Source: Spirometra erinaceieuropaei
Taxonomy: Eukaryota; Platyhelminthes; Cestoda; Diphyllobothriidea; Diphyllobothriidae
Direction of reading: 5' to 3'
Assembly (NCBI GenBank): GCA_902702965.1
Contig: CACRXP010000141.1
Span: 766,613-830,612 of the forward strand
DNA length: 64,000 nt
Part shown: positions 3,234 to 45,724 of the stretch, piece by piece
Numbering within the stretch: position 1 is the first letter of the stretch
Layout: every line of letters begins with the position of its first letter
Position numbers and translations under genes: made by a program
Notes under the pieces: model-generated
What the model saw: the letters and a program-made list of their open reading frames with translations, nothing else
What the model was told of the DNA's origin: nothing
The model's database searches: none

Positions 3234-3459
3234 CTTGAAGAAGGAGAAACGATCGCCGGGACAAGAGCTTTATTAGCCTGGCGTTTCGGATTCCTACTCG
3301 AATCCATCATCAGAGATAAAAGAGCAGAAACGGGTGGTTGTTGCAACCACCACAACCACCCGTTTCTGCTCTTTTGTCTCTGATGATGGATTCGAGTAGG
3401 AATCCGAAACGCCAGGCTAATAAAGCTCTTGTCCCGGCGATCGTTTCTCCTTCTTCAAG
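3234..3459. mobile_element. Hammerhead-type foldback element, copy A
   Basis: Two arms of about 107 bp (3234-3340 and 3353-3459) are inverted copies with one obvious mismatch (GATAAAAGAG against GACAAAAGAG). A 12-base spacer separates them. Each arm carries the same ribozyme-like layout reading outward: CTGATGA (3380-3386 on plus; complement at 3307-3313), T, stem II GGATTC/GAATCC, GAAA (3406-3409), then GCC where a cleavable hammerhead needs GUC. Similarity to the other copies continues beyond the right arm to about 3510 (AGACTACTCCCTGGGACTCG, then TTCGCTTCTATTGGCAA). The unit resembles Penelope-element hammerhead sequences. Confidence 0.85.
3376..3417 (+). ncRNA. Hammerhead-ribozyme-like motif, copy A right arm (cleavage site lost)
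   Basis: Stem I strand GTCT (3376-3379) and AGGC (3414-3417) can pair with one G-U wobble. CTGATGA and GAAA are intact and stem II is perfect, but the NUH triplet reads GCC. The missing U at position 16.1 should abolish cleavage. The left arm has the same change, so both arms look inactive. Confidence 0.6.
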
Positions 3460-5149
3460 ACTACTCCCTGGGACTCGGCTCTTCGCTTCTATTGGCAAAG
3501 AACGGCTACCAATACTGCTTCTTTATGATCCAACAGAGAACAAACAAAATGGAACCACCTAAGATCTGGCCTTGCCTACCGCATCATGAGAAAATTTTGA
3601 ATCCACCAGCAGCGTGCCACGGTTGTTCTTGCCAGACCAGAACGCATAACGACTCAGTCCACGAATACGCGAACACAAACGAGCAGTTCACAGGGGAAAT
3701 TCGCTATCCAAAGTCGCTGGTAGCGTCCTTAAGAAAGACCACTTGTTGAACCACACAGACGACTAGTAGGACTGGCCACTAACAGTACAGGGGTGGGGCA
3801 GCCGGAGGACTTAGTTTCTGGCATAAAATTCGCAAACTGACCTATCTGGTTCGCGTTGCGCGCGTAATGTCAGATGTCGTGGGCCAAGAGCACAAGCGTT
3901 TGACGCGCAATGGGGAAAGGAGAAGGGCTGCAGTCATATAAACTCTTGGTAGGCCGTTTACAGTTGGAAACATCTCAACTTATCTTCGGAGATGGAAGGA
4001 ATAAGTAACTATAATCCCACTTTAAACCAACGCAATAAGTACAATTACTTTGTTTTGACCCAAATGCGAGAAATTCAGCGACCTGGGCGAGATCCGAAAC
4101 CAAGAAAACAAGGGGAAAGTTTGAGTACAGCCAACGTCCTACCTATCTTAACTACGAGGTCCCACCGAAAGCCGTGAGTTTAATCACATTTGGATCGAGT
4201 TACACGCCCAGCCTTCTGCAATGTACGGAATCCACCGGATCTGATACAGTATGCTGATTACCCAGACAGGGTTTTCTAAGTAATCCACATAGAATCCATC
4301 AGATGGCTACCAGGACCATATTATCAATACTTAGTAATTATGGCAGATTTCAGTTGGTTTCTGAGGGTTCTAGGTCTTTGCTTGAGTGAGTTAATTGGTC
4401 TCGCATGGAGGCTTTGGTGCATTTTCCTGGAATTAGTCGAGTCATCCAAAACAGCTGTTATATTCCTCTTTTTAACAGATAAAATCACAAAGCTATTTCA
4501 CAGTTTTAGAATTTTAAGTGCCTTGTTCTTCTTCTCCAGAGGATCCGAGAAACGTTTGCTTTGGTTTACGAGGACGTGGAATATTTCATGTTTCATTTTC
4601 TATAACACATGCCTTTCTAATGGAAATAAAAGATTCACCTGTGTATCACTGATAGAAAATTAGGAGTCTTGGAGTGCTGCTAAGGTGCAGAATGTGGATC
4701 GACATATCTTACTAGTGCGTACTGGAAAGCCCATTTGAAAGGTCGTTTGCGCATTCCGATCTGGACTAGTCTCTTCCTTCTCATCGGATGGAGAAAATCT
4801 CGCTGACTTCTTATTTTATATTTTACTGTTTTTTTTTTCAAAACTGCTGAGACTATTCGTTATCGATGAATTTGGAACCGAGCATGCCTCCTCATTCATA
4901 GTGGAACTCTAGTCTCTCACCGCTCAGAATTGGCAACAAGTTACGTGGGTTCGATTTTTCCAAAGGGTCTTATGCTCTACCAAGGTAAAAAAAATTGGCG
5001 CGACCAGCTATCTGAATCCAAGTATTTTACATAGTACATGAGTCTGCCGACATTTCGCACTGAGAATGCATTGACTGACGGAGTATGCATTGCAGTGAAC
5101 TAGTCAAACGATGTTGCTGACACTACTTGCAGCCCCTTTCGCTCGGATG
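3460..5149. other. Region without a recognised gene
   Basis: A downstream flank of the receptor gene. The longest frame (4340-4663, plus, 107 codons, hydrophobic) has no recognisable domain and no supporting splice sites, so I do not call it a gene. I looked here for the receptor's last exon (M4) on the minus strand and did not find a convincing one. Confidence 0.35.
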
Positions 5150-5317
5150 TAGGAATAGAGGGGCGATCACCGATCGTTCTTACGGAACTCACTCGTTCCG
5201 TTATGCCTTACGGGCTCTCTCTCGAGCCCAACCAGCAGCCACACAGCGGCGCATGGTATAGGCAGAATGGCATTACCGGTATTGTCTCCCTTGTCTTTGT
5301 CGATAATACCATTCTGC
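5150..5317 (-). repeat. SINE-like repeat with short inverted ends, copy 1 (centre deleted)
   Basis: On the minus strand GCAGAATGGTATTATCG and its inverted partner GGTAATGCCATTCTGC sit about 20 bases apart. They are followed by GCCGCTGTGTGGCTGCTGG and CGAGTGAGTTCCGTAAG. The same order occurs at 51393-51725, where a tRNA-like segment lies between the inverted ends; here that centre is missing. Confidence 0.6.
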
Positions 5318-6120
5318 AAATAGATTTCGTGTTAAGAATGTTGTCTACTTTGTTTGAATTTGTTTGCGTCGCGAGCACTCCCATTGACCTCTTCTTAGTT
5401 CTCAGCGTGAAGAGGTTCACCCCACACTTTTTCACAGTAAGCTGGGCAAAAATTGCCCTTTTTATCGTGAATCCTGTCATCGTGAGCAGTCCGAATTACC
5501 GTACACAATGCAACAATCGCGTTAAAGCAGCTCTCTGAATACAAAAGGAAGGGCTTGTTTCAGTAGATACCACCAAACTTACTGATTGTTGATGTCTGCA
5601 AAAAAGCCATTGGAATTGAGACCGTCGACTTTTTGTTGTAAGAATGAAGTGAATTCGGGGGGCCCATGCACGTAGAAGGCCAGGTTGAAAAGATTTTGGA
5701 CCGGACTTAGCTAAAAGTGCAAGATACAAGTAACATTTTCTTCATCAGACGTAATCTGCGGTTGGTATCTGAAAAATACCCTAAAAATACAACCTTGGGT
5801 TGTCTGCAGTAAGCGTCGTAGTTTGCGGTGGGAAACATTAGCATTTTTAAGGGTCGTTTCCAACATGAATGCGCCGGAAAACTCGTCCACCCGTCTTAGA
5901 ATCTTCCACAGTCTCCAGGAGAGAACTCCACCCAAACAGGTAAGCGTAACAGTCTATCGTGAAAGGGTAATTATAAACTTTTTCGAGAAGGCTGAATTGT
6001 CAGGTAAGGAAAACTATGGAAATACTCAAGTCTATGACACACCAGTCAAGTTCTGGTTGGTCCTCTAAGTTGTGTACTTTTAGCACCCATAGGCCACCTG
6101 CTGGCTGCAATCGTACTTAC

Positions 6121-6210
6121 CGAGTAACAAAACGCATAGACAGTGTGCAACGGTAGGGCTGCTTTGTAATGCTTGTATCGCCTGCGAACCTAACACACTT
6201 CAGCAAGGCA
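6121..6210 (-). CDS. iGluR exon 14: S2, late segment
   Basis: Acceptor ATCAAAAAG|TGCC (an alternative is CTGAAG|TGT at about 6198), donor ACTCG|GTAAGT. It encodes KCVRFAGDTSITKQPYRCTL then SMRFVTR, resembling the S2 end where a Cys is followed by '..vG......Yg.al.kgSp'. The donor is phase 2, so at least one more exon (rest of S2, M4, tail) should follow at lower coordinates; I did not find it. Confidence 0.55.
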
Positions 6211-9200
6211 CTTTTTGATTGTGGAAGGCGAAAAGTGCACTCGGGAGGACTTTCAAGCAGACTTGATTTGACATACAGTATAGTATTAGATAAGTCGAAG
6301 TGAATGAAGTACATTGTTTCGGCAAAGGGACATGATCATATGGTTCAGGGGACCGAACCAACTGGGTCTGAGAGCAAACCTTCTGTCTATCCAAAATTGC
6401 GGCCGCGAAATGACTAGGAGACGATGGCAAATGAGCCACAGCCTGCTACCCAGTCTCAGTTTTCTTCGCCGTACGATAATTTTAAATACGTTTGCTCAGA
6501 GGTAAACCCCTGTCTAACCGCGCCGGATCCCTTTACTCGGCAAAGGTCGGGAAAAATAATCCCAAAACAAATCGGCACTCACTAATCCACGACTGAAATC
6601 AGGTTTCAAAGTCATAAATTTAAATTATTCAAGGGTTTGTCTTTTGCCTGATTTCTCGTCGAACAGGAGGCCATTTGTGTTAATGTTTAGAATGCAATCG
6701 TTTAGAGATGTCACTTAAAGTTCGTTAGTAGAATTGGCAGAAAAAGTATCATACAAGGTCTACCTTTTTCAAATAACACTGAGTTTTCAATAAATAGGCG
6801 GCTTCGAAATTGCTCAAAACTCCAACCCAAGTTGAATCTGCCTGAACTCGCTGTGATAACGCATCGACACTGTTAACGAGCATTTGATCTGGCCAGGACG
6901 TACTCGCAGCGTTATACAGGTTCCCCAAAACGCCTCCGTCCGAGCTCTAGAGGGGAAAAAATCAAGGGGGGGGGGGGGCAGTGAGAACAGAGGAAGAGCA
7001 AGAGATGGAGCGTGCCATAAATTTCACATCCCGAATTTCGGAAATCCTCTTTCTTAAACTGAACTAACTGTTCCAATGAATGAAGTGCCACACAGCCGGG
7101 CGGGGAATGCCATTAAACTGCGGTATTCAGCCTTTTCCTCTGCCATTAGGCACATGCGCTATGTGCAGTGTGGTGGCAGAGTGCTCCGATGACGCTACGA
7201 GTTTCTGGGTCGTGTCACAGCTGCAAGGTCACGCTGACTCCGTCTTCTACGTGCCAGTCGATGCAGGTGCACGCCGCGCGTCCAACAGCTGTTAAGGCGC
7301 TCACGCATTCATCGACTGAAGTGCTCCTGACGCAAGTCTGCGCTATGCAGACCACAAACCCTCACCCGGCAGTCCTTCCACCACGGACGATGAGGATCAC
7401 TCCTGCGCGTGAATTTGATTATAACGAACTCTTCTCACGCCCATCGTGCTTAAATGGTAGGACGAGGACACGCCAACTGGGGATGGGGTTGGACATATTC
7501 GCAGACATGGCCTAAAGTTGTCATCTAAACTGCAAACATTGGACTCGGATCCCACAGAAGAGAGAGGCACCGTAAAGGATACCTCATGGCGGAACCATTG
7601 CAGTTCGAACCTTGGTCAACGGGAGGACCGGGATATCCCGTCAGCTAGCAAACTTTCAAGCCACGACCTTAGTGTGGCGTAATAATTTCCGGCGCGTCAC
7701 TTTTACTTACATGATGAGTTCGCCGAATTCCTCGAGGCAGGGCACCTCAGTATCCACCCGCCCAACGTACCGATGGATTTCTGAATCATACAGCAGACTG
7801 GGGATGAACTTGAGCACAGTGACTAACACAGACCTAACAAAGGCAAGATAAAATATGCCAGCGGGGCCACGTGTTCTCGTTTTGGTCTGGAGCTAAGACG
7901 CTGACTTTTCACAATCTGTGTGCTCTCGCCCGACAAGAACAGTCCACTTGATTTATTATCTCAGGCTTATGGCGCGTGACCACGCTGTCGTAGTGGGCAG
8001 CAATGGATGTTGCACCAAAGTGCTATCACCAGTCCGAGATTGTTAAAATCGAAGGTCAGTCAAAACGATGTCTAATTCCTGTTTGATTGCTACCCAAATG
8101 ACGGTCCGATCTTCATAAATGATGATATCCACCGTGTATCTCACAACAGAGTCGGCGCGGAGATGGTGACCTGCGCAACCTTTAGTTCATAGTGATAACG
8201 GACGTATGCTACGCATGTCACACCCTCAGCTCCCTTAGCCAACTGGGCCCAGTGTCGAAAAGACCGGAGGCCAGTTCGGTCCCAGTCCCCGACAAAGCTG
8301 TATAACTCATATACGGATGCCACACACGCTCCATCAGTGTAGGATGGATCAGGCTTCCACAAAAGCACAGAAGGGTGGCTCAGATCCCATGTCAGTGAGA
8401 ATGTCATAAGGTCCTCATTCAGAAGGTACCACTGCAGCTCTACCTCCCGTCCCGAGAAGAGAGTCCAGCTAATCCGTCAGTTGAAAGCTTCCCGAGGCAC
8501 GGCCTTTAACGCATCACGATAGTTTCGAAGAGCACTAGATTGTTTTAGGTGTGGGATATGCGCTGAATGCGTGAGAGCGGAGACCCCAGAGCCAACCCCA
8601 CTCATCTTTCGCCAGAAACCAGTCCATTGTTCGGGTCCGTCGACCACCTGCTGAGCAGACTGGACACACGTGGAGCTAAAAAGCCTGTCTGCGCGTACCA
8701 CACACGACCTGCCCACCACATTACAAGTCAGGTTTTCACAAAAGGGGTGGAGCTATCCAAATATTCGCTAACGGTTGTGCCTATTGGCCTACTACTTAAG
8801 GCCTCTATTTTACACGAACTTTTGCTTTACACTGTACTTTTACGGCATTTTGCCATGGCACCGGTCTTTAGTTAGTCTAAAAATGCCGCTGTACTGTGCG
8901 GAAGAGGAGAATTTCAGTGGGTGTATGATCGTATTCCAGCTTAGTAGAACGATCGTCGTATAAAATATCTGCATCTGCGACATCTGATAAGCGCGTATGA
9001 GGGCCTTGAAAACGGTCGACGCCAATGGTAGACAGGTGCACAATTTCAATTAAAATTGTATAAATTATGGGTTCTTACCCTGGCCAGCCAGTAGACCGAG
9101 CTGTTTTGAAGGAAGAACCACCGGTAGCCTTGGGTATTAGTCAGGAGGTCCGTTAGTGAGTTAAAATAGACGTCGGTTGTATGCGTAACCAACCTCTGGG

Positions 9201-12200
9201 CAGAAAGCATGGCAGCGAAGGAGACGACCAGGAGTATCGCACTGAGCCAGTAGGACTGATATAGAACTCGAATGGATGGCATCTTTGGCTTCAGAATCAG
9301 CTAGTACACGCAAGGTCGGAAAAGGATAGGAAAGGGAGTGATTTAAAAACTGTTTGATGGAACTAACTCTTGATTGTACGCAATGTTCATGGCTGAAAGC
9401 AGACATAGTTACATAAAGACAGTGCTACTAGTTGACGTCTACGATTTATGATGTAGCTTTTGTGAGATGTCATATTGGCTTCCTAGTTATAAGCCCACTG
9501 TTTATTGTGTAACACTCGAAAAAAGTCGTATGTGCAGGCAGTCTATACGTGAACGCCGATTTACTCTAGTCTGAATTCGGACTTTCATATCAGTTACGCA
9601 TTCAATTGAACAAAAGAGAGGATTGAAAATAAAAGTCCCTGATAAAATTAGTACCAACACGAGGGCACTGTTTTCAGAGTTAGGGGTTCTGCCAAGGAAA
9701 CTCTGAAGGACGATAAGAAGGAGTTGAAACGGAAAGTCGGTGGTTTACTTTTTCTTTGGTTTAATGTAGATGCAAAATGTATGTCAAGTATGAGTGGAAA
9801 AATCTAATAAAAACGCATGAAGACTTTTGATAAACAGTCGCTCAGTACACTTAGAACAAGTTATACGCCAGCCAACAGTCAGACCTAGCATGAACGGCCT
9901 TAGCCTACGCGGTGATCCGCACTAACACAAGGAATTCACATTAGCCACTGCTACTGGGCATATGACTGCTGAAAACTCTGAAGCAGGGTTCATGACTCCG
10001 CCTCTGCAGGTGAAATTATGTGCACAAGCACTTTAAGCCTGTCTGGAAACTCATGTTTTAGGTAGGACCTAAAGGAGCAGATGAATAAAATTTGCCAAAC
10101 CTCTAAGGAAAGTAGAAAGATTTCCCTTGTAATCCTGTTATTGTGTACACTCGGAGAGGGTATGAAAAAAACGAAGGACCCGTCGAAAGTTTAGAAATGT
10201 ACGCTTCAATTTTCAGGGTCTTAGCAATATGTGTTTGTTAGTCAAAGCTACTCTGAGGTGTGATTGATGTGGTGCAGGATGGACCAAGGCAGATTGTCTC
10301 GATACTACCACACCGGTGAGGGAGGAGGGAAGGATAGATGGAATAAGGATTTTCTAGAGAGGAGATCTTGGATAGTGGTCTGTGGAAAGAACCGGCATCA
10401 TGTCTTCGCCATAATTCGATGGGTTGGAAGGGAAGGTGGCCGATGAGATGCAACCGGAGGCCTTACAATGTGCACTTGGGTCGATATTACAATAGACGCA
10501 ACTCCCTTTGGAGCGTTAGGCGTCTAACTTTTCTCGATGGTTAGGTGAGGCCTGTACAGATAACTCCCTGATTAATGAGATATTACGAAAGAACGACAGA
10601 CTGGGGTTGTGCCTGCTGAGAGCCTACTTATGTTAATCAAAGCATTTCCTAGGGCGTAGACTTCTGTGGCCATCATGAAAATAGGAGTTACTGACTAAAA
10701 GTGCGCGGTGAATAACACTGTTTTGGGGCTCAGGTATCGCAGGAGCACTAACGTCATTATCCTTAAAATATCCAGACGCCAACAAGAAAATCTTTCAATT
10801 ACTAAGGAACGGTTTTTGCTTTAAAATCTAGGACTTCAAGTCTTCTGCAAACAAGTCCCGTTGCATATTATCATTGTTAATTACCATTGGTTCATTCTGA
10901 CTGTCGAAACAAATTTCTAAATTTCTGCGCCAACAGCTCCGACATGTACTTTTCACAATCTCGGTACTCTCTATGATTTACCGATATCACTACGGACGCT
11001 CTGTCAGCAGGGAACCCAGGTGTTAGATGGGAAGTCAGCGATCCGACTCAGCATAGTGTCGAAGACTTCTTTGTTGTATCAGTTTCTTTGCCTACTATGG
11101 CCGCCAAGTAAGTCATAATGACTGTTTCATTTGTAAGCGTCCACGAACTCGCTCAAACTGCCTTGATAAAGAAACTGGCTGGAGGTGAGCTGCTACCAAG
11201 ATTCACGCACATGGCGCGCCAGCCACACGACTGAATGATGGCGCGCCTCATGGACAATGGAACATTCTCAGAAGCAGTCGTAGTGACCACTGGAGTGAAG
11301 TCGGGTTGCATACTCGCCCCTTCCGGACGCCTACCGACATGAGCGTCGTGAGACCATCATCGTCGACAGGATGGACGACCGAATTCTGCAACCCTTCACG
11401 CGGACATCAATAACCACTGCCAATGCACTCCTTTTAGTTGGCAACCGTGCACTTAGTGCCACGAGAGAAACAACCACGAAAAGAGGCATGGAACCCTTCG
11501 CCTCCAGCTGCGCCGATTTTGGACTGAGTATCAGTACGGACAAAACAGCGGTCATGTGCCAACCAGCACAAGAGGAGGAACACATGAAGTTCAGTATTAA
11601 CAGGAATGGCGCTGGACTCGGATTGGCGGACAAGTTCATGCATCTAGACAGCACATTTTCACGGAATGTAGGAATCAACGACGAAGTGGTTCACCGGATC
11701 CCTCGAGCGGGGCAGGTATTTGGCTGGCTAAAGGCCTCCGTCTGGAATCTCCTAGGACGTCACACTAACGCCAAACTTGAGGTTTGCGGAAGAGTAGTCC
11801 TAATTAAATCACTCTGTGTGGCAGAACCATGGACCGTCCACGCCAACCAAGACAGGAATCTAAATCACTTCTGCCTCAGCTGTTATCGAAGAATACCGAA
11901 GTTGAGGCAGCAGGACAGGATGCCGAACATGGAGTCTTGAGACGCACCAGAATCCTCCGCATCCGAGCCATGCTGAGGCAATTGCAACAGCGCTGGACCA
12001 ATCATTTTGTGAGGAGAGGCGACGATAAATTACCCAAGCGACTCTTCTAAGGCGACATCACCACGGCTTATTGCTGACAAACGACGTTACAAGGGCGCCC
12101 TTCAGACTTCCCTTAGAAGATCCACAAATCAATCCGGCGATCTGTTTGTGAAGCGTGTTCCCGGATCCTTCTCGGTATGGCGCCTCCGGTACTAGGACAC

Positions 12201-15200: not shown

Positions 15201-17459
15201 CGGAGCTCTCGTATTCTGAATCTCCATCCGGATAGATCGGTGAACTTGAGCTCCTCGCGGTTCAGCTAAGTGTATATTAGAAGTCATCAGAGATGCTACA
15301 ACTCATTAAAAAGGCTGTCCAGTACTCGTAGCTAACCGTCGAGCCCGTGTCAGCCCACCGTCATGGTTTCGTGCATGAAGTCCAGCAGGATTATTCTAGA
15401 GGATTGTCACGCGTCAAAAACAACAAAGAGAAACGAACCACCCGTTAGAACAAGAATTGCATACAGGAAGAGCGACTGACTGACGTACGTTAAAAGCCGT
15501 CAGGTCGTGCAGAAACTGGGCTTCTAGGGCGCCATTCGATGGGTCTTTAATCGGGTGGTACTTGAAATTGTAGTTTTGGCTGCTTCCGAAAATTGCCTTC
15601 ATCATGATGCTGCTCGTCGAGAAGTTGCTATCGTCTGGGTCTGGCAAGAAGTAGTTCTACAAGAAAACGAACTAACATATCAATTTAAGACGGTGCATAA
15701 AAAGGACGAGGACGTGCGTGAATTAAGAAAATACTGATAAAAAAGCTAAGATAGCAGTATGAATACATACTCCAGCACCCAAGGTACCCTTTGAGACGGA
15801 ATAAGGTAGCGATTTTTTGTTTGAAAGTCCACCTCAGTAAGCAGGTAAGTAGAAAGTTACCTGATTGTTTGATTTTAAAGTAATCACTAAATAATATGTT
15901 TAGTCGTTCAATAAGAAATGGCGAGATTCTTAGCCTGCGATCCAACCATCGTGCCGGTAAAAAGAAATTTATCTTCAGATAAACTGTTCCACTGACGTGA
16001 ATGGCCTACCTTAAAAAGTAGTGGATAAATCTTGCATGTTTCTAAAGTTCTTTAGTTTCGGAAATTGTAAACTACAGAATTGCCTTACGTATAGCCGAAG
16101 AAAGTCCCCCAAGACGTGGAAAAGTTAATAATCCGTTGACGGAAGTCGAATGTCGCAAAATTTTCGAGGCAACCTGGTTAGTTTTTCTGCGGTGGTCCGT
16201 AGCGTATGGGGGTTCACCGTTATCCCACAACAGAGACAATCCGTTTCTATTTACCAATGAAAACTTAGGTTTTTAGTTCCCGATTTATATGCTCGATATG
16301 CCAATTGTATGATCCCTCTGAACTTGCTTCGCCGAGCTACAAAAAATTGTAATGAGCCATTTTTGTTGCACATGCTTATAGAAATGTAAAGACCTTCTTG
16401 AGGCGTCGATAGGTTCGGCGTTTCGCCACGGTCCTCTTTCTCTCCCTGATTATTTAGTTGGGCAGTGGGGTTCTGCATCAGACAACTACTCATCTGACAT
16501 TTCGTCAACAGATTACTACATTCCTGTCACTTTGAATCGATCACCTAGAATGAAAACTTCTGGGACCGCGTGGTTATAAATGATGTCTTTGAACAGTTTG
16601 ATCGTTCAAATCTTTAAAAATTACCCAAAAATAATACTTAGTATGGAATCACATTGGAAGGAGACCATTCGAATTTGTACTCCCAAGCCCAAAGTTTGAG
16701 AAAGTTACGTTAACACCTTTTTTATTTTCGACCGGGACAAGAATCATTGCTACAAAGAACTATTGGACTCGATTTTCCGCGATCTATGGTTCGCTATTGA
16801 AGAGGCGATGGAAGACGGACTTCCTTTTTCAGTGTCCTCCAACCGGACGATTTCTGACGAAGATTCTTAACAGAAACTCAATCAACAAGTCTTAACCATT
16901 CAGATACAGCAGCAACCACCCGCTGCAACACAAACAAGGCTGCATACGCACGCTATACTTACTGAAGCAATGCAGTCACCAAAAGTAGCGAAACTAAACC
17001 CTTCCGCGAATTCTTAAGGGCCAATGGTCGCCTCCTAGTCTTTGTTGGGTAGCATCGAATGCCCTGAAGTAAGGGCAGCAAAAGGCACAGTCGGCTGGAA
17101 TCACGACAGTCAAACGCCACTCGGGGTAAGGATTGCCCACAGACCGCAAGCGATGCGGTCAAAGATTCTATACGTACGACGACAATTCGACCGTAGATTT
17201 TGACGATGTCCCCCGTGTGCTACACACCAAGATGCAGGAGGCACGGTGACTTGCGCATGAATTAGTCTGTAGTGATGGTAGACTTGCGCTGCGTCTAACG
17301 CACTCTCTCATCCCCACTCCCCACCAGGACCCGGTGTCAAGAGAGAGTCAAGAAGACTGGAGGCGGGAGAGGCGCAAGTGGATGGCACGATCGAGCCCGC
17401 ACCTTGGCGTTCCACTCCACACCCCCTGGTCCACACAGAGAATGACTAGGTTTTTGATC

Positions 17460-17490
<31 letters not shown>

Positions 17491-20400
17491 TAGCAACAAC
17501 AACAACACCCCACCAGGGGTCAGAAGGACGAGGGTGATGACTGGACAGCCATGCCCACCATCTGTATACCTAGCGGGAGCGCACGCGCATCTACCGGTAG
17601 GGAACCAGGTGTCAGGAGACTGCCAGCACATACCAGGCTGCAAGGGCCGTGGTTTGCTGATACTGACAGAGCACACGCTCTCAGACTTTTTGACCAATTC
17701 TTTACCTAACCAGGAGGAGTTAACCGTTATCTGCCGAACTCCGTGCAGCTGCGGGGAATGCCATTACGTCGGAGAAGTCGACCGACAGCTGCAAACGCAA
17801 ATGCATGCGTATCAGTTGACCGCTTGAGAACTGGACTCCAAGTTTGAGGTAGCCACCCATGCCACGCGCACGGCACACTTTGATATCGTTCAGATTGGAA
17901 GCCGATGAGCAGGAAACCTGGATGGCCAAGAACTGCACTGTCAACCGCCACGTAATCTTGCCTCCCCATAACGGATCTTTTGAACTTACCTGGCATGAGG
18001 TGAAAATCGGTGCAGAAAATCGGAACGGTCACATTTTGTGCCACAAATTAACATTCAGTTTAGCAGTATGTTTTCGAATTCATAGAGGCAATGTGCTCGC
18101 CACTCAGGCTTGTATGTCAGGCAGCTTGTGCTTTTCGCAGTTTAAAATGACTCGACCCATAGAAAAGAAGTGCAATATTAACAGTGACTGGACTGCTGAT
18201 AGACGCGTACAGGCGAGTTCCAGGTAGCAGTTCAGAAGACGAAGATGTGATCAATGGAACAGGAAATTTATTGGCCGGACGTGTCGGATTCTCACCTGAA
18301 TCCATCATCAGAGACATTCATCTGCGAATGTCTCTGATGATGGATTCGAGTGCGAATCCGAAACGTCAGACGAATAAATTTCTCGTTCCAGTGGTCGCAT
18401 CTGCGTCTTCTGAATGATTGGACTTTCGAAAATACTGTGAGGAAATTGATGGAAGTATTCTAATGTTGAGATATCACTGTTTTTGTCTACAGTGATGTCA
18501 TTGTGTCCTATGTGAAGGGTTAGACAAGTAAAAGGCTTAATAAACGCTTTGTGTTGTCTTAAGTCGTCGTAAAAAATCACCGTATTTATATTTCCATCGA
18601 AGGCTAGGTCTACCTGTGCTGTTAAAATTGTCTGACTTTATCGAATAATCGGAAACATGTATCGGCTCTTCTTTTACTACTGTCACACAGAGAGCTTATG
18701 CATGGTAACATGTCAACCGCCATCAGTGAGCTACCAATCAAGGTCGAAGGCTCTGGACCCCGCACATCACCTGAGTTAAATTCGACAGTTTTACTAATGC
18801 CTCCGAAGGTTCGTTAAATTCGCCGCACAGTAACCTCCAAGGAGAAATATTATGGTCTGGACCATAAGGCATACTTTGTCTGACATGACTTTTCAACTTG
18901 GGTCAAAAAAGTCTAAATAAAAGCACAAAAACATATGTATCCATACTGTATGAGTTACCTGGAATGCGATGGCCAGCACTTGCGTTTGCTTTAGGAAGCT
19001 AACCGTATCCAGTTCACCCGTCTGTACATCGTATATGGCACTGATTTCCTGGTGTGGTTGAAAAAGTATGAGGATAAGAACGTTAGATCCTCCTCGAAGC
19101 CCGTCATGGTAGGCTAAGACTCGAATGCGAAATTTGAATGTGTGAAGGCCTACGTTTTTTTTGCTGTCTCCCTGTAGACCAGGCTATGATTAAAAACCGT
19201 AAATCCTAGAATGTCGTGTTGAGTTAGAACGGAACTATTGTCCCAAGGAGACCCAGTCATCGCTGCCTTTGACTTAAGAGTAATAAGCTTATACCGATAC
19301 CCGACCTTGAAGTGGATTGGCGAAATTTCACTCGCTGACAAAGTCCACGGGCTACTGAAGATTGACAACGGCCTTGAAGCACTTGGAGGACAAAATATTT
19401 TGCTGTGATGCAGGAGAAAGGACATCGATGACATAAGACTGATATCGTAAAATGATAAATGCCCACCTTCTCCTTGCAGACTAGGAAACTAACAGGTGGC
19501 TGGCAAGCGAAGAATAGTCAAGGGCAGGAAGACGACTACCAGTGCGCAATGGCCATTTCAAGTACCATGTCAAGAGAATGATTCCGATTGCATTAAAAAT
19601 ACCTTTGGCTCGTAGTTAAGCGTATTTAAGTCTCAGAATCGCCTAAAAAGATGAAATGGAATTAAATCCGTGCTCTTATCGTCCCCAGAATTGGGACTGG
19701 TTGGCTGGCGTGTGCTGCTTGCCTCTCCATTTGAGGAACTTTCATGTTCGTTAACACGATAAATTACAACGCGTCTGTATCGCTATTTGCGAATGGACTA
19801 CAATACCTACCAGGATCTTGTATTTACGATAATGTGCAGTTCATCGTTCATCCCAAGAAACAAAAAGCCCATATTACGCAAACCTTGAGCACAAAAAACA
19901 GACGTTTGCAAGCGAAGACGTAAATACGTACAGCGCTTTATTATTTGAAAAAAGGAAAAATAAAATTTAACTTCAATGGTAAAACCCTGGTATTCGCTTT
20001 TCGAAATGCAGAACGTAACAGCTTACTAGTTTATTGTCAGAATCACTGCGTTGAAACAAAGCAAGTAATTAACAAAACGCGCAAATCAATGAATTTTTAT
20101 CATAATTATTTTTCCAGAGAACGTCCAGGAAATTATCCGTAGTGGCGAAATTAAGCGGATATTTTTTATCAACTAACCCAGTAGCAGTTCAATTGTCCTT
20201 TTTATTTAATTAACGCGTCGGTCATATAAACCGTCAAATTTACAAATCCGAATTCGAACTTTGATACAACTTAGAAAGATCTCGTACATAGAACTTTGGA
20301 AAACGAGACCACTTCAGTGACTTGGTGAACACGGACAGGCCTAACAGGCAACCTTATCTTCCGGAGAAAATGCCTATTGACATATGTCTACTTTTATTAA

Positions 20401-35402: not shown

Positions 35403-35849
35403 ATTATCTTGTTCGTAATAGTACAGCAAGCAGTTCGAGGCCGTCTGTTTGTTCAAACAACATTTACTCGTTTGTCTATTAAGTGGCTCATTTCGTAAAG
35501 AAAGTGCCCTTAACACCTTTCTGTGACAAATCTCCCAGATAAAAAAGTGTGCTTCGTAATGGATTACTTAGCATGATTATGAGGGGTTGAGTGTTTTACT
35601 CATCGTCACTTATCTGCAGTAGTGCAAATAACCACTACGAGTACTCTGACTTCTCAGGAAGGGAAAGCCCAACAGATAAACAAATAAAAACAACTGTACA
35701 AGGTCTACATCGGCCGCCTTATCATCGTAAAAAATGGCTTTAGTTGGATGCCGCCATACACATCGACGGACGTGACGGATGCAGGACAGCAAGCCTGAGA
35801 AAATCCAAAGGCACGCGAACCGCAGTAGAGCAAACAGCTTATTTGCGTT

Positions 35850-37135: not shown

Positions 37136-37144
37136 GGTATTCAC

Positions 37145-37200
37145 AATAATACTAATAATAATAATAATAATAATAATAACAATAATAATAATAATAATAT
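37145..37200 (+). repeat. AAT trinucleotide microsatellite
   Basis: Near-perfect AAT array with two interruptions, marking the exact end of RTE relic 2. Confidence 0.95.
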
Positions 37201-37204
37201 TCGA

Positions 37205-37490
37205 ATTTAATGGCAGTTTGCAGGCACTATCAAACAAAAATAACGCACGGATCGGGCTAACAGTGAGAAACTTTTTATGATTAAATACTGAGGATGGTAT
37301 TTTTGTAGTTTGGGTGGTTCAGAAGAAAAAACTGCTGCCCGTGTATTGACGTCAGTTCAAAAAGAAATAGGTAACACTGATTCGGATTTTTTTAGTTTCA
37401 ATTCCTTCACATGAAATTGCCACTGGACCAAACAAAGGCATTGAAAACAATTGTTCGCTAGCGGTTGAAGAAACTGACCGCGATGAGACA
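37205..37490 (+). repeat. Dispersed repeat R4, copy 1
   Basis: Blocks TTTAATGGCAGTTTGCAGGC, TTTGTAGTTTGGGTGGTTCA and AGAAAAAACTGCTGCCCGTG recur in order at 38225-38560 and, inverted, at 39200-39510. Both plus-strand copies follow AAT-rich sequence. Confidence 0.6.
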
Positions 37491-38224
37491 GACCAGGGGA
37501 TAAGAGACCACGAACACCACCACTACCGCAGATCAAATCGGTGGAATGGGCAGCCAAAATATGTGGGAGATTCGATGAGAGGGGATTGTGTCCACATTGG
37601 CGCGTCTGGCAGCCGAACGCTGCACAGTGTTCACAGCCCGGGTTGTGACCGGGGAAACGCACGGGCAGGGGTGCTTTCCAGTTGAGCAGTCGGACATCGG
37701 GACGGAGAGTAGCCGTACTGGTGAACTATAAAGTCGGCACTGCTGTATCGCAGCAGTCAGATTGGCAGGGGATGGATAAGCAGAATATCGGTAGCGCTGG
37801 GGTTGCTGCGCTAAGTTATAAAACGATAATGGATGAGGTTTTCACGGTACGGTGGGGGAAGGTTCTTTGAATGCCAACAAAGCCAGGTGGGACATCTCGT
37901 TTGCAAAATCGTCGATCGATTGATCACATTCTTGCCTTAGTGTTGCGAACCGCTCGGTGGCCATGCTTGTAGAGGACGACACGTCAAACAACTAAAACTG
38001 TTCTACGTGTCAGGTTGAATGCCGACGTGTGGTTATTCCCAGCGTCTAGCACACTTCTTTGAGCGGGACAGAAAGAGACTGCAAAAGATAGAAGGTGCGA
38101 TGGGAGTTTGGGACAACTACTAGAAGTATATCCACATCACAAAGCCAATCACGGACATCGCGACCCGGCTCGTATGGTTCACGGCTTAGCAAGGGACCGA
38201 GAGTGCAGGGGCAATAAATCCTAA
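37491..38224. other. Unassigned sequence between R4 copies
   Basis: GC-rich, repeat-like; no coding exon recognised. Small frames at 37357-37662 and 37682-37870 show no domain. Confidence 0.35.
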
Positions 38225-38560
38225 TGTTAGGGATAATAATAGTAAATTATTTAATACCAGTTTACAGGTGTTATGATGGGAAGATAAAGCAGAAGTCCGA
38301 ACAACAGTCGAAAAATCCTGTCAATTAAATGAAGGGGACAATTTTTTTATAGTTTGAGGGTTCAGCAGACAAAAACTGTTACCCATGAAATCGCGACAGG
38401 TATGAAATGAGGGGTAGATCTGTATCGGATATCATCAGTCGCCATTCCTTTTCATGAATTTGAGACTGGATCGACCAGAGGCACTGACGGACAGCTTTCG
38501 TTTTTGGCTAAGGAAACTGTCCCTGGTGAGGCCGGCCATGGGGATCAGAGACCAAAAACG
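38225..38560 (+). repeat. Dispersed repeat R4, copy 2
   Basis: TTTAATACCAGTTTACAGGT, TTTTTATAGTTTGAGGGTTC, GCGACAGGTATGAAATG and TTCATGAATTTGAGACTGGA. The last block matches the reverse complement near 39290. Confidence 0.65.
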
Positions 38561-38689
38561 CCATCGCTACGGTAAATTCGAGTGTTGGATTCAGCACACA
38601 AAATTTGTTGGTTTTGCCGAATGTATAAAGGAGAAATAGTTATCTTTAACAACAAGTAATTTTGCAGAATTTTCGCATTCCTAGGCAAT

Positions 38690-39510
38690 TTATTCCAAAT
38701 AGCAATTGTGTTCACAAAGAAGAACCGACCATATTTAACGGTACGTGCCAGGGGAAGAAATAAAATACCTCACGATTTTTGTCACGTCGGCAGTAGTAAA
38801 CATGTTTTAACGTAGTTAGCGGGTTAAAAGTGCTGCCGTTTACGATATTAAACAATATAAATATTCCATTTTTTCAGTCGGACAAAATCACAAGGGGTCA
38901 AGGCCTGTAAGCCTGCATCGTTCATGGTGAGACAAATTCCGGCGTTTCGAGGTTAAAACTCTTTCGGTAAAAAATGTTGGACGGATTCTATTTTCCTCCG
39001 CTCAGCAGCACTCAGAAGGCTAAATAACAACGAACGGTATTCCAGGCCAGGTCTAACGTACATGTTAAAACGCGCACTCTACTATCGTTGGTTTTAAAGT
39101 TTCGGGGGATACACCTGGTCGTTCTGCCTGCTCTCTAGACTATCAGGGCGCTTGGAGTACGATACACCTACACCCTTAATAACCCCAGGCACATTTATGT
39201 CGAGACCGTCAATACTAGGTCGAAGTTGGCGGTGGTCGACAACAACCATGACTGAGCGACAGTTGTCCTTTAGTGTTTATGATCGGTTCAGTCTCAAATT
39301 CATGAAAAGAAATGGCGACGCAGCGCTAGCCCTCCTTTTCTTGACTGTCGCGATTTCATGGGCAACATTTTTTTCTGCTGAACCCTCCAAGCTATTAAAA
39401 GAAATTGTCCCCTTAATTTAATTGACAGGAGTTTTTTCACTGTTGTTCATACTTCTGCTTCCTCTTTCCCTGATAATGCCCTTAAAATGATATTAAATGC
39501 ATTTATTATT
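38690..39510 (-). mobile_element. Non-LTR element relic: R4-like 5' part plus RT C-terminus
   Basis: Reading from 39510 leftward, an inverted R4 copy (39200-39510) runs into an RT C-terminal tail. The tail reads VRPGLEYRSLLFSLLSAAER, RRKIESVQHF, GLQALTPCDFVRLKKWNIYI and, after stops, LARTVKYGRFFFVNTIAIWN. This is the usual end of CR1/Jockey-type polymerases ('yvRp.LEYa..vWsP....d...lE.vQr.ft' to 'R..fF..R....WN.LP'). Several stops mean it is inactive. R4 may be the body of this family. Confidence 0.68.
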
Positions 39511-40440
39511 GAATAAGTGATGTGGTGTGCATTCTGAGTCGATATAATCAAAAAGAAAAGGCTCTTCGGAAAATCGAGTTGTACTCGGACATTTTCAAGT
39601 CGGTGACACCGACTCGTCGTCAGACGAAATGAAAGAGGGGAAAGTGAAATCGGCAGATTAGGTCGATTGACGCAATAGGACAAACAACGAAAAACAGACA
39701 GCTGATGTGTGAGAAGGGTGGGTACCCAGTTATGGTAGGCGGTGTGGCAGGGGAATGGAAGGAAGAACAGTTAGGGCTCCCTGTGTTGGAGCTGGAGAAA
39801 ACGAGGGGGATTACGGATCAGTGGGAATGCGGGCGAGTGGTCACTGATGCGGGATGAGGCCAGGGGGCAATGTGTCGGCGTTGGAGGTGTTAGGGGGGTT
39901 CAATTGTTGTTCACCGTGTCGAAAGTCGGGGAGGCGGAATGGCGAAACGGCATACGTCTATATGGCCGAGTGGAGGATAGCAGTTGTTGGGGTGTGGGAA
40001 CAAGTCAGTGAGTGTGTACGTAAGCCCTCGTAGTGAGCGTCTAGATCGACGTGGCGGTTGATGCTGGTCACGCCTGAAAGCCAAGCTTCGATGAATTCTC
40101 GCAACTGTCTGGTGTTAGACCTTGTGATCACTTCAGTACAGTCCCAATTGGTCACGCTTAAGAGCGTGCGCAAACACGAGGAACGGAGGGTCACATCGTC
40201 GAAGGGCTAACTTGTGCTCCTTCATGCGAGTCCCAAGACATCGGCCTGTATGGCCAACATAAACACTAGGGTAGTTAACACACGGTATACGGTATATGAC
40301 GTTAATAAGCTGTTCTTTGGGCATCGGGTTCTTTGTCATTATTTTCGTGGTTTTGGCGCATTTGAATTTCTCAGCTCTCGTGGCCACTTTCATGCTCCTG
40401 ATTTTCTTCAGAAGAATTCACCGTAAATCCGACCGAAAAA
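39500..40440 (-). mobile_element. Penelope-like element relic: GIY-YIG domain and C-terminal tail
   Basis: From 40393 down it reads NVIYRIPCVNYPSVYVGHTG, RCLGTRMKEHKLALRRCDPP and FLVFAHALKRDQLG. After a one-frame slip it continues NWDCTEVITRSNTRQLREFI, EAWLSGVTSINRHVDLDAHY and EGLRT. The GIY-YIG motif is YRI...VYVG, with HTGRCLGTRMKEH as the second helix. A Pro/Ser-rich tail follows and ends near 39610 with FISSDDESVSPT, as in related elements. One frameshift is visible; this is a fairly young copy. Confidence 0.88.
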
Positions 40441-43400
40441 ACACAGGCAGTAATTGTACTTTCTGCGGCATTTCAATTAATATGTTTTCGGTGTTTTCTT
40501 TTGGACACGTAATTTCTTTCCTATGTTTTTACCTACTGCGCCTGAACTCATAAAACTGCTTGGGACATATGATGGATTCTGCTGTCAGTCGGCGCCCGAA
40601 AGAAAGTCTAACATCCGAGTATGTTTGCAGCATTAATTACGTTGCTCATTATATTGGATGAGTATTATGGGAGCCTGGATCACCTCATTATCTCTGTTGT
40701 CGTCAGAAGGACCCACCGCTGTCGCGCACATAGTCTTGCACGGACATTTTCAATAATTTTGCTAATCTAATACATTACAAAGAGGTTCTATATTTCGTTA
40801 AGTGATGTAAGCATATTCAGGTCTTCCTAGCTAGATAGATTTACAGTCTACGGTGTTGGGTTTGGGTCCGACTGCTAGTATTTCCCATAAAGTCCTCAAA
40901 ATACGCAGGCGGCTGGAAACCGTTAAGCTCATGAGCGCAAAATAGTGAGGCGCTAATAATCGCACCGCCAAAAGACGATGCCAAAGATTCAGAGTAATCG
41001 GGACTTAATTTCCGAATTCCATCTAAGAACTACCTGAAGACATATGCTCAGGTGGTACCATGCCTATAAAGCGTATTCTGCCCAAAGAACAATCGTTCTG
41101 GCCTCTACGAGAGAACGCAAAGAACGTCTTCCCATTCTAGGACGTTTTCAAAATAACGCCCGTAAACCGCTTGTTGTTCCTAACAAAACTGCCGTTCAAC
41201 TACATAAACATCTTGATTATGCCGTATTATAAGATGAACTGCTTTGATACAGACAATTATTTCAAAAAAACTGCATCCAACATCTTCTTGGCAGTTTATA
41301 AGCAATTTAAGATATGTGAACAAGCATGGGCAAAATCAGCAACACTCTTGCAGCGAGATTCGACAAACAATGCTGAGTACGGTATTCATGAGGCGACTTT
41401 ATGAAGCAATTCAGACTAATGGAGTAAAACGTAATTCAGCATTAGGGTCCCGATTTTTCAGATGACAAAGACATTGACTGTTACCACCAAACCAACAGAA
41501 CTACACATGTAGCAGACGCCTTGATACTTCATTACACATATCAAAAGATAAACTGCTGCTGTTTTTTAGGATTTTTATCCAGCTATCTATCTATCTATTT
41601 TCTGGTGGGCTTGAATAATTCTGATGCGCTTTGTGCACGCCCCGCATTCTATGACAGCTTTCAGTTGGGACCCAGACTTGCAATCTGCGAATAGTTTGAA
41701 CGCAAATCCTGTTCGTTAAGGTCTTTTGCTTGTTCATGTCTCCGTTATGCAACATGAGAACTCGTGCTTCGCACTTTGTGCTGTCCGATCCTACACTTCG
41801 GCATTCTACTTTCCCACAAAGACCGCGAATGCTCGGTTGGGATACGATCCCCACAAATTTCTAAAGGAAAGAGCAATACTTTTGTGGTGTTCGACAAATA
41901 GGATGCAAACGAGAAGACTGGAATTATTCTAGCCTTGGAATTAGTTACTCTATGAAATAATCTGAATAGGATACGAACCTGTGCAACAAATACATTGCAT
42001 AAACGGGAGCACTTTTAAAACTGATCATTAACCAATAACAGGTGCGTCATGTGTTTTTAGTTTTGTGAGGCCCTATCCCGCGTAATGACTTAGGTTTTCG
42101 CGGAATTGGCGCTCCCGAATGTCGTATTTCTTGAACCACTATCATAATTTGACGTGCATTGAACGTGACCATTTAACCCGTCAATGAACACCTTCATTAC
42201 ATATGAAGAATGCGTCTGCAGATGCGATCAAATAATTTATTGAATATGAAAGTTATGCAAGCAATAGGTAATAAGATCGGTCGCAAAAGAGTAGATAACA
42301 GAAGAAGTGTGAATATATGTTGCGCGTTTAATTTTTCCGTCTGGAACCTGTATTCTCCAAAGTAATCCCACGGAATACCAATATGGCGTGTCGAGGGACG
42401 CACTGCGCAGTGCGCAGCTTCCCATAGCACCGTGGGAAGCTGTCAGGATAGATAGTGTTATGTAGAGCTGGCCATTAAGAGGGGGCGTGTGGGTGTATAG
42501 TGATGTGTCAGCGTCCAAGGTGGAATTAAACGGAACCCCACCCCTTAAAACCTACGCCCCTGGCAGCATCTCACTCGCCCTACGATTGATCAGCGGCTAG
42601 TTTTTTGACTGGCTGACCCTCGTTAGTAATTCCTGAGGCACAGTTCACCTACAGTTTCTTCGCGCTGTCGGCATTGGCAGCGAAGGTGTGGCACTAAGGC
42701 TGAATTACCCACCCTGACTGCATTCAGTCAGCTAATCGGACTAATAGCCGCACACAAGCTCACAAATACGAACTGCTAGTGTTGGGATAGGCAGAGGCTA
42801 GTAAAATTCAATCAGGGATTTCATCTTAAGCTCACCCATGGTCCAGACAGAAGTGGGAAATCTTTGATAATTCGAATAACCCTTGAATGGTTCAGTTTGG
42901 CGTATTTATCCGGGTTGGTCTTGGGCTGGCCGTGGTCAGAGTTCGTGTCCCCTACTGCAAGCTCGTCATTTGCGGCTCTGTAAAATTCATAACTGAGCAA
43001 GATGAGCGCCGCAGCATGCTTGCGAATGGAAGTGGACTTGAAAGTAAGTTAGCAGCTCTCAAGGCATTCCTAGTTCATGAAGTTCCGTATTTATTAGGCG
43101 TCGCAGAAACCTTAACAGGCACAGACGTGTTTGGTTCCAACTTAGTCGTTGACGATAGTCCATTTACGGGACAGCCGCCAATTTAATCTTTCTGATAGAA
43201 GCTATTCCGTTTTTGTTAGCTCCCGCCTAAATCCCCGGGAACTTCCCGACGCACACCTGTGTTAGTAATCGAACCTTCCACAGTCTTGTCCATATTTATC
43301 TGCTGCAGCCCAAAACGCGCAAGCCGGCGAGAATGCCCAAGTCCTTGCCGCACTATGATCGTGCGGCGAAGAAGTCCTGATGATTCGGAACTTTAATGCT

Positions 43401-43599
43401 TTGTTCGTCAACCAGGCGGTCTGGTTAGTAACCGTTAATGACAACAGTGTTAACTTTAAGCTGCCAACACCTTCCCGTGAAGGTCATTGGATCAGCTAGC
43501 AAATATTCTCACGTATTTCCCGTCACATCTATTTTTACCCTGCGTTGACTTGGCTTTATTGCTTGTTGACACAGAATTTGTCAAACAGTCGTAGCGGTT
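40441..43599. other. Unassigned intergenic region
   Basis: Holds a short CTAT repeat (41583-41598) but no gene, exon or element that I can name. The 99-codon plus frame at 42887-43186 and the 93-codon minus frame at 42237-42518 have no domain. Confidence 0.35.
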
Positions 43600-45340
43600 G
43601 TGCATGATACGGCTATGGTCGTGTCTGAACTAGCCAGCCCGGAGGATATCACGCATTATACCTCTGATCTCGTGATCATCAATGACAGCGGACCTGAACA
43701 GTTTGACCTATTTTCTTCGGCGAAGGTCCAAGCATCATTTGTATGTCTTGGCGGATTGTGTCGAGCAATATCTTGCACTGATCTGCTCTTCAGCGCTGTA
43801 TCGAGCGAAGTAACACAGCCCGTAAGGCGGACGACGAGGAACGTGCTCAAATCACCTTTGCCATCCTTCTTGGATGATCTGAAATATCCTCGCAGTATTG
43901 CTGCAGCGAGTGCGCACTGCCTAACTCGAGACGAAGTCGGTGTACTTCGCTCGAAAGATGGTCCTCATGCCTCCAATTTTGGTTCATCTGCACTCAAAGC
44001 CCAGTTTTCGCAATCGTAGAGGAGGCCTAACACGGATGGATGCACGGTAAAGGCGGATCTTCGCGGGTATGGAGACGTCGCGTAGGGTTCATATGCACTT
44101 TTCAAGGGCTGAGGTAACCATGCGTTCAGCATCGATCCGAGAACAACTTTTGTCTTTACTATTTCCATTGAGTGGCAGCCTCACTCCGAGGTATTTGAAA
44201 CTGCCTACGTCTTCAGGTTAACAGCCATAGATCCCAAGGTGGCCTCATACTAGTCAGTGATGCAACTCGAAAACACCAGCCTTCTCAGCGGCTTCATTCA
44301 CCCGTGGCATCACAGACTGTAGGTCAGTAAAGCTTGAGACTTGCAAACCGATGTCGTCAGCATAGTCGAGACCAGTCTGCTGCTGTCCGAATGCAAACTC
44401 AACACTGTCAAAACCATGTGTGGCCCTTCCGAGAATCCAGTTGATGTCACAGTTGAACAGAATGGGCGACAGGATGCAACATTGCCGAGCACCAGACCGC
44501 TTATCGAACGGTCGGGACAGATTGTTATGGACCAGAACTCCAAAAGTGGTGGAGCGATAGTAGGTCTCGATACTGAAGACTATTTTTGCGGGCATACTGT
44601 TTAGTTTCCTATTCGCCACAAGAACCCACAATAGACGGAATTAACAAACTGGACGGCCGTCAGTTACTGATATCAATGGCGGAGTTCCATAATGCGCCCT
44701 ACTGTGAATATCTGGTCCACGCCCAGCCCCGAATCACGCTTGGTTGGGCCTCCTCCAAGAGACGTGCATTGCATGGAATCGCCTGAGAAGGACAACCGTG
44801 AAGACCTTCGCAGCAACGTTGGTGAGGCCTATGCCGCGTTAGTTATCGCACTTTGTCTTATCTGTCTCCCTGAAGAAAGGTAATTGATGTCCGAGCCCCA
44901 ATAAAGAACTACTTCGTCTCCTCGCACTTGCTCAGTCACTTCACGCACGTGGGGCGTCAGTGTGAACACAGGATTTGTAGATTTTAGTGGGAATGTCATC
45001 CTCTCTGGGTGTCTTGTTGTTGTGCAGTCTCTGTATTGTATTGGCAACTTCTCCCTCAGAAGGGTGGTCGCATGATACTGTATGGGCTGGAAAGGAAAAA
45101 ACTCCGCTGCAGAGAGCGCGAGTGTGATGGGTTGCCCATCAAAGTTAAAGATGTGCACGAAGTGCTCACGCCAGCGGTCGATCTTGGCCGAGTTGTCAAC
45201 AATAAAGCCGCCATTCACGTCACGAAAAAAGTTACTAATTTTCGAGGGCTTACCACTAACTCTGCGAATAATTTGGCAGAGCTTACGAGTGTCACCATGG
45301 CGGTTGTTATTTCAGCTCAATGTTTCTGCTGTCATCCCTA
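43600..45340 (-). mobile_element. RTE-like non-LTR element relic 3: RT
   Basis: From 45218 down it reads MNGGFIVDNSAKIDRWREHF, VHIFNFDGQPIT, then after gaps (44540-44265) AKIVFSIETYYRSTTFGVLV, HNNLSRPFDKRSGARQCCIL, SPILFNCDINWILGRATHGF and TGLDYADDIGLQVSSFTDLQ. The catalytic YADD box is present and the 'G.rQGCilSP' box reads GARQCCILSP. A C-terminal piece LLYDCENWALSADEPKLEA is near 43990-43965. The middle of the RT (45.0-44.6 kb) is scrambled. This is a different RTE subfamily from relics 1 and 2. Confidence 0.85.
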
Positions 45341-45534
45341 GCCGACTTCGCCATCATTTTTCGGAATTGGCTAAAGGAAGCATTGTTATGGTACTTGACC
45401 CGAGTCCTCTGGACAGACAACTGCTAGGGTCCTTCGTTGATCCAGTCATTGCTGTGCCTCTGGGTGAATCGAAGAACTTTATCAGGTTGCCGATACAAGC
45501 GAAGATGCGAGTTCCGGGAACTAGTTGATCAGAG

Positions 45535-45704
45535 GAAGAAGCGATCGCTGGAACAAGGGCTTTATTCGCCTGACATTTCGGATTCGCACTTGAATCCATC
45601 ATCAGAGACAGGAGCAGAAAAGGGTGGAGGATGGTGATAATGGATTCAAGTGAGGATCCGAAACGTCAGGCGAATAAAGCCCTTGTTCCAGCAATCGCTT
45701 CTTC
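45535..45704. mobile_element. Hammerhead-type foldback element, copy C
   Basis: Arms from 45535 to about 45608 and from about 45630 to 45704 are inverted repeats with a 21-base centre (GAGCAGAAAAGGGTGGAGG) that resembles the inner arm of copy A. The outer left flank (GATACAAGCGAAGATGCGAG, TTCCGGGAACTAGTTGATC) matches the outer right flank of copy A inverted. The right arm ends in a TTC run (45700-45724). It abuts the 5' side of RTE relic 3. Confidence 0.85.
45568..45609 (-). ncRNA. Hammerhead ribozyme candidate, copy C left arm (core intact)
   Basis: On the minus strand: GTCT, CTGATGA, T, stem II GGATTC/GAATCC with a six-base loop, GAAA, T, GTC, AGGC. Stem I pairs with one wobble and the cleavage triplet GTC is kept. 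The right arm reads GGTGATAA where CTGATGA should be, so only this arm could be active. Same bulged T and minimal stem III as copy B. Confidence 0.65.
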
Positions 45705-45724
45705 TTCTTCTTCTTCTTCTTCTT

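Follow-up and report, generated by a model that had tools for sequence, protein, structure and literature searches.

We analysed a 64,000-nucleotide stretch of the Spirometra erinaceieuropaei genome (the window: contig CACRXP010000141.1, positions 766,613 to 830,612, in an assembly of 758.7 Mb and 1,932 contigs). It contains three foldbacks, copies A, B and C, whose inverted arms carry hammerhead-like units. The arms align with the beginning of an open reading frame (ORF) of a Penelope-like element (PLE). The foldbacks are probably truncated insertions of this ORF start. In the likely course of events, reverse transcription was primed from each of the two target-DNA ends, at different start sites, and the two complementary DNAs (cDNAs) were joined head-to-head.

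Source element and ends of the foldbacks

Positions on the element (r) refer to a reference of r1-1203, taken from locus L031 (L031:7260-8462). In order, the reference contains the end of an ORF for reverse transcriptase (RT) and GIY-YIG endonuclease, a stop codon, a TATA box (TATAAATA, at r1034), a leader, the hammerhead core (CTGATGATGG, at r1087) and an ORF start (MMDSSRNPKRQANKALVPAIVSPSSRLLPGTRLFASIG) with its short end at r1166 and its tail end at r1203. The core has two ATG codons from r1090, and cleavage is predicted between C1120 and A1121. An arm comprises the leader, preceded in longer copies by the TATA box, then a minimal type I hammerhead that covers the ATG, and the opening codons of the ORF, 25 without the tail or 38 with it. 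In L062 the ORF continues beyond r1203.

The RT upstream of the arm is of the Penelope type (FWARYVDDTFVV). Relatives of this upstream piece were 90% identical proteins, three of which matched Pfam RVT_1 with E of 1.6e-5 to 4.3e-3, below the curated cut-off. The GIY-YIG endonuclease follows the RT in the same ORF; the L031 piece scored 21.6 bits (E 2.7e-4; cut-off 22.6) and the relatives P0007 and P0041 exceeded the cut-off (27.7 and 26.7 bits). No solved structure matching P0005 was found, and two proteins of the window had no Pfam match. The best 120 of 1,182 proteins related to the RT-endonuclease piece were all named as proteins of S. erinaceieuropaei or Sparganum proliferum. An optional tail of 30-40 bp, as expected of a PLE, was present as 37 bp (r1167-1203) on one arm of most foldbacks. 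Pseudo-long terminal repeats (pLTRs) occurred as inverted pairs and as one direct pair, two tails on C2 lying 2,703 bp apart in direct orientation, a spacing that fits a tandem unit. By these alignments the arm is the own ORF start of a PLE with endonuclease, and the Penelope connection made in the earlier note holds in the form of an arm downstream of the RT/GIY-YIG ORF and a TATA box. The AATAAA of the unit was considered as a poly(A) signal and rejected; it lies in frame in the ORF start as the codons N-K.

The exact 18-base hammerhead core occurred 3,062 times in the assembly, compared with 0 for the reversed control, and at least 41 matches to the copy A arm were found when 40 of 2,092 first-look candidates were scored. 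Among 100 listed cores, 16 pairs lay within 3.5 kb of each other; all were divergent, and none was convergent or direct. A gapped pattern found 110 short foldbacks. The expectation of the earlier note that other copies would pair as inverted repeats between target-site duplications (TSDs) was thus borne out: TSD words of 8-14 bp flanked the whole foldback in 14 of 22 cases in a flank scan (10 bp away from the arm end in L037), and TSDs of at least 8 bp were seen by eye in 8 of 10 further foldbacks (L060 omitted). In L046, whose foldback has a 13-bp duplication, 168 bp between the arms (1531-1698) had no match to the PLE reference and are possibly captured DNA.

The outer ends fell at two sites, about r1166 and about r1203, 37 bp apart. 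Among the resolved foldbacks of the first fetched loci and copy A, 15 of 16 were mixed: the outer end lay at r1164-1173 on one arm and at r1200-1203 on its partner. This count includes L048, an older copy beside the query match. It omits L011, L009-old, L033-old and L050, which have a single resolved outer end, as well as L037-old, B and C, although these are mixed; in B and C, hand alignment placed the short ends at the codon of r1165-1167. Single-arm copies from the same loci were split evenly (nine with a tail end and nine without, some beside N runs), so free combination would give only about half mixed pairs. Coordinates listed for C1-C19, covering 99 tails and 50 short ends, gave 13 mixed pairs out of 14 divergent ones and no short/short pair; because only exact matches to the patterns count, and the short-end pattern does not allow an A to follow, these counts are not frequencies. 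L049 is present in both pair counts. The pair at C49:794401/794621 was a candidate tail/tail exception and was rejected, its left flank matching the ORF continuation of L062 by eye; this pair and L012, whose left flank matches it likewise, were omitted from the tail counts. In several foldbacks the flank continued the template, with AAGACTA in L019 and L045 and GGCAAT in L019, L043, L046, L049 and L057. Three or more bases beyond r1166 were continued in 3 of 14 short ends (P = 0.0012), the 14 being those not chosen by the short-end pattern, with L010 and L017 judged by eye. Such continuation would be expected if the cut strand briefly pairs with the RNA.

In most of the foldbacks fetched, the two arms had different inner ends, in many cases hundreds of bases apart, which speaks for two separately primed cDNAs. 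Among the 50 listed short foldbacks, 32 had the leader motif on one arm. These 32 arms ended at A1065 (22), r1066 (4), r1064 (4), r1063 (1) or r1062 (1); 26 of them thus ended at r1065/1066, at a distance of 31-32 nt from the TATA box. No arm of the remaining 18 reached the leader motif as written, and no arm in the listed set was longer than the leader end, though the pattern allowed it. The copy A arms extend to r1055/1059. In three fetched foldbacks (L051, L052 and L056) the arm ending at r1065/1066 was the one without a tail; that the no-tail arm is generally the longer was not established (17 versus 7, one tie, P = 0.064). A1065 follows the first T of the TATA box by 31 nt, and ends cluster there; it is most simply read as the 5′ end of the RNA.

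A second cluster lay at the predicted ribozyme cut. Counting only A-type arms, we found 28 ends at r1121 and 25 at r1122, with 6 at r1119, 14 at r1123 and 10 at r1125. Before r1122 was counted, 28 of 58 ends at r1121 exceeded the expected quarter (P = 1e-4); for r1121 and r1122 together P was 1e-5, in a grouping picked after the data were seen. Of the 13 foldbacks whose centres lie near the cut, two (C116 and C131) had both arms begin at the AGG of r1121, with a difference close by in each. These ends suggest that ribozyme-cleaved RNA sometimes served as template; for self-cleavage the cluster would be at most an indirect sign. The chance that it instead reflects RT stalling or a joining bias is only a little short of even. 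The peak spans two positions, the counts cover only A-type arms and uncut RNA was the main substrate in vitro in the available part of a study of a related element (PMC11167929). A stall, however, would be expected near r1125, on entering stem I, where 10 ends were counted, and the paired starts of C116 and C131 also weigh against this reading. Since copy A carries the triplet GCC, predicted to be inactive, in both arms, ribozyme cleavage would not be required for making a foldback.

Mechanism of insertion

Two-ended target-primed reverse transcription on PLE RNA appears to be the best model of these ends, and for any one foldback it is likely. Both cut ends of the target DNA would prime reverse transcription on the element RNA, each DNA end would use a different one of the two neighbouring start sites (about r1166 and about r1203), and the resulting two cDNAs would be joined head-to-head. 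With an RNA 5′ end at r1065, the short arms would be run-off cDNAs of the first ~102 or 139 nt. Arms that reach into the upstream endonuclease/RT region may have been copied from read-through or tandem-copy RNA, and a minority of templates may have been ribozyme-cleaved RNAs ending at r1121/1122. The head-to-head ribozymes would be a by-product of joining two cDNAs.

Several observations weigh against this model. L027, alone among the 16 resolved pairs, has two short ends, and a tail/tail pair was present on C12, its outer ends being known from coordinates only. The pairs were counted in small fetched sets and by exact patterns, with any short end followed by A left out by its pattern, and 8 of the 22 scanned foldbacks had no duplication of 8 bp or more. 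The RNA start at r1065 is deduced from the distance to the TATA box and from where the ends cluster. The signal at r1121 is not sharp to a single nucleotide, r1122, the intended control of sharpness, having 25 ends versus 28. Both inner ends of L018 lie at r938, as a snap-back would give. In Poseidon_Ac, a PLE of the green anole, the two strands were not seen to differ in start site in vitro, so that one site per end is not predicted by that work; its ribozyme mutants inserted normally, and none of its RNA-seq reads was found to end at the cut (PMC11167929).

A wider proposal, that PLEs as such integrate by symmetric two-ended target-primed reverse transcription, is tentative, and we lean against it. 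A paired enzyme would hold both cut ends, and synthesis would always start at the near site of the tail on one end and at its far site on the other. Each end would copy its own RNA to the available 5′ end (r1065, r1121 or upstream read-through), and the cDNAs would be joined without a classical second-strand step. If this were true, the hammerhead would be a length switch, a cut RNA giving only a tiny insertion.

Among the alternatives to two-ended priming, a snap-back is unlikely. Here one cDNA would fold back and copy itself, or an antisense RNA template would be self-primed, as the accessible part of PMC3846280 proposes for rotifer Penelope elements. The equal inner ends of L018 (938/938) would agree with this, as would the centres C93 and C122, which are identical perfect palindromes. 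So would the arms of A, L018, L035, L038 and L043, which differ at just 1-3 sites, fewer than separate them from nearly all other copies compared. However, a snap-back would not be expected to leave the unequal inner ends of most foldbacks, and a copied-back arm should repeat the tail, which distinguishes the outer ends. The arms of L045, L048 and L061 also differ by 7-14%, and the TSDs of L045 and L061 are intact. It seems that same-source and mixed-source arm pairs both occur, and age may explain the mixed-source pairs.

L1-like twin priming, in which one RNA meets two primers and its 5′ piece is inverted, is quite improbable. It shares with the foldbacks the priming by both strands, the inversion of one piece and the duplications around the whole. 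However, L1 twin priming yields two different adjoining pieces, one with a variable internal start, whereas both arms of a foldback start at fixed sites and span the same RNA stretch. Their overlap on the RNA was 82-469 positions in 24 of 26 pairs, and 34 and 57 in the other two.

Very little speaks for a non-autonomous foldback family, as proposed in the earlier note, or for one with terminal inverted repeats that propagates as such: copy number is high and the arms are inverted, but the centres were distinct in 49 of the 50 listed foldbacks, the ends are asymmetric with the tail on one side, the arms are the start codons of the PLE's own ORF and, in the fetched loci, single arms and pairs were similarly frequent. 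The common structure, ends and centre of such a family or of a retrozyme were not found in these sets. Because the centres are distinct and the two arms usually end differently, each foldback would seem to be a truncated PLE insertion of its own and not the copy of a master foldback. A recurring foldback type had been suggested by three equal 50-bp spacings; it was rejected when the gapped pattern showed differing centres.

Foldbacks of the window and their hammerhead-like units

An inverted-repeat comparison of the window gave arms at 3234-3341/3352-3459 for copy A (108 nt, 99% complementary), 18231-18319/18326-18414 for copy B (89 nt, 85%) and 45531-45604/45635-45708 for copy C (74 nt, 92%), with one arm of each copy extending further. 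The inverted arms were as the earlier note had described; the full inserts were larger than it had stated. They span 3236-3495 in copy A (TSD of 12 bp, by eye and flank scan), 18195-18414 in copy B (9 of 10 bp by eye; the flank scan alone gave a 6-bp word) and 45486-45736 in copy C (8 bp by eye; the flank scan gave none). All six arms encode the N-terminus of the PLE ORF in translation.

Copy A lies between CAAAGAACGGCT at 3224-3235 and the identical 12 bases at 3496-3507. Its left arm (3236-3345, minus strand, r1055-1166) has the short end and a unit at 3269-3317 (minus; 69.6 bits in a covariance model, R1); its right arm (3352-3495, plus strand, r1059-1203) has the tail, encodes MDSSRNPKRQANKALVPAIVSPSSRLLPGTRLFASI and has a unit at 3376-3424 (plus; 75.9 bits). 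Both units carry GCC instead of GTC at the cleavage triplet. Copy B is bordered by TGACTGGACT (18185-18194) and TGATTGGACT (18415-18424), recognised by eye. Its left arm (18195-18319, minus) has the tail and encodes MDSGENPTRPANKFPVPLITSSSSELLPGTRLYASIS, and the unit at 18267-18315 (minus; 66.9 bits) has GACA instead of GAAA. Its right arm (18320-18414, plus) has the short end, encodes MDSSANPKRQTNKFLVPVVASASSE and carries, at 18330-18378 (plus; 76.8 bits), the best-preserved hammerhead-like unit of the window. Copy C is bordered by TTTATCAG at 45478-45485 and 45737-45744, also seen by eye. Its left arm (45486-45625, minus) has the tail, a unit at 45561-45609 (minus; 75.4 bits) and an inner end, placed by eye, at about ACCC (r1065); its right arm (45635-45736, plus) has the short end, an expanded CTT run and a degenerate unit at 45630-45678 (plus; 56.9 bits) with a broken CTGATGA box.

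R1 thus matched both arms of all three copies (six sites, 56.9-76.8 bits, E at most 7.6e-14), and the next best of the eight listed matches had an E of 0.17. For R1 we used 19 of 40 distinct units, with units of copies A, B and C among them, so the matches in the window are partly by construction. Covariation is more independent support for hammerhead-like units. Stem I (4 bp) and stem II (6 bp) flank CUGAUGA and GAAA, and in the 19 units, from which near-identical ones had been omitted by hand, pairing holds in 91.1% of cells, and both sides have changed in 5 of 10 pairs. Compensated changes include GUCU/AGGC to UACU/AGUA and GGAUUC/GAAUCC to GGAAAC/GUUUCC. Depending on the measure, 0 to 8 of 500 shuffles reached the observed values. 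As this stretch codes for protein too, and the choice of units relied on core motifs, part of the signal may come from other causes.

The units have the conserved core and stems I and II of a minimal type I hammerhead; helix III was absent, only ACGU lying between GAAA and the cut. Published PLE hammerheads likewise have no helix III in the accessible part of PMC7761336. The Rfam hammerhead models gave no match in the window at the gathering score, and the L004 arm gave none even with E allowed up to 10. Three foldbacks with inverted arms and six minimal hammerhead-like units, as first noticed from the letters alone, are upheld, with the reservation that both units of A, the left one of B and the right one of C are altered. 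On either strand only one of the two arms has the sense of the ribozyme, and it faces its own complement. Hammerhead-like units with wholly different, compensated stems were seen at L022 87-135 and L046 5107-5155 (TACT/AGTA in L022; GGAAAC/GTTTCC in both); to judge by these stems, they belong to a divergent PLE subfamily.

The window also holds two weaker PLE RT pieces at 2878-3210 and 16845-16958 (32% and 39% protein identity), copy A lying directly downstream of the first. An older Penelope-like RT/endonuclease relic is present at 59079-59853 on the minus strand (68% DNA and 52% protein identity to the reference). In addition, a 96-nt direct repeat (252-347 and 2722-2817) is 100% identical, and three stacked inverted repeats (38-63 nt, 82-92%) at 38311-38500 and 39257-39435 surround ~750 bp, perhaps another mobile element.

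Comparison with known systems

The insertion mode of PLEs, the frequent inversion of pLTRs, the nature of the tail and the role of the hammerhead are named as open questions in the available text of PMC11167929 and PMC7761336. A large set of short foldbacks in one genome fixes both ends of every cDNA, giving two start sites together with a probable RNA 5′ end and perhaps the position of the ribozyme cut. From the model follow predictions of the RNA ends and of the joints to be expected in vitro, and the insertion mechanism would become directly testable.

Poseidon_Ac, as far as its report is available (PMC11167929), is a close parallel. As here, its ORF start carries a hammerhead in which GAAACGUCAGG follows stem II and the cut falls ~26-31 nt after the ATG, and its far RT start site lies 111-118 nt into the ORF, compared with 111-114 nt here. 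Two RT start sites bounding the tail, and the cutting and extension of both target strands, were shown there in vitro. In contrast, the account of Poseidon_Ac deals chiefly with tandem copies and gives results obtained in vitro. What is proposed here, namely head-to-head insertions in which each DNA end uses one start site, and cDNAs that stop at the RNA start or at the ribozyme cut, is not reported in that text.

Penelope of the rotifer Adineta vaga, in the part of PMC3846280 at hand, also has inverted pLTRs around an insert with duplications of 8-10 bp, a 31-bp tail that is optional on one inverted pLTR, and a pLTR that holds the TATA box and first codons. It differs in having few copies per family, whereas thousands of cores are present here, and its inverted form was attributed to self-priming, with antisense RNA as the probable template, whereas inner ends here are mostly unequal. 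One-tailed inverted pLTRs were therefore already known; within the open-licence papers searched, the mapping of cDNA start and stop points appears to be new.

In the accessible text of PMC8166898, LINE/Penelope makes up ~10% of the 796-Mb S. erinaceieuropaei genome and a similar share in Sparganum, the two sources of the nearest proteins of the present element. That text gives class totals and does not describe structure, ribozyme or foldback. The dispersed minimal type I hammerheads of animals resemble the present units in lacking helix III, in numbering thousands and in their link to pLTRs (PMC7761336, in part). Their dispersed state is left unexplained in that part, whereas the dispersed units found here would be insertions of a PLE ORF start; if this is true, many dispersed minimal hammerheads of animal genomes would be explained in the same way.

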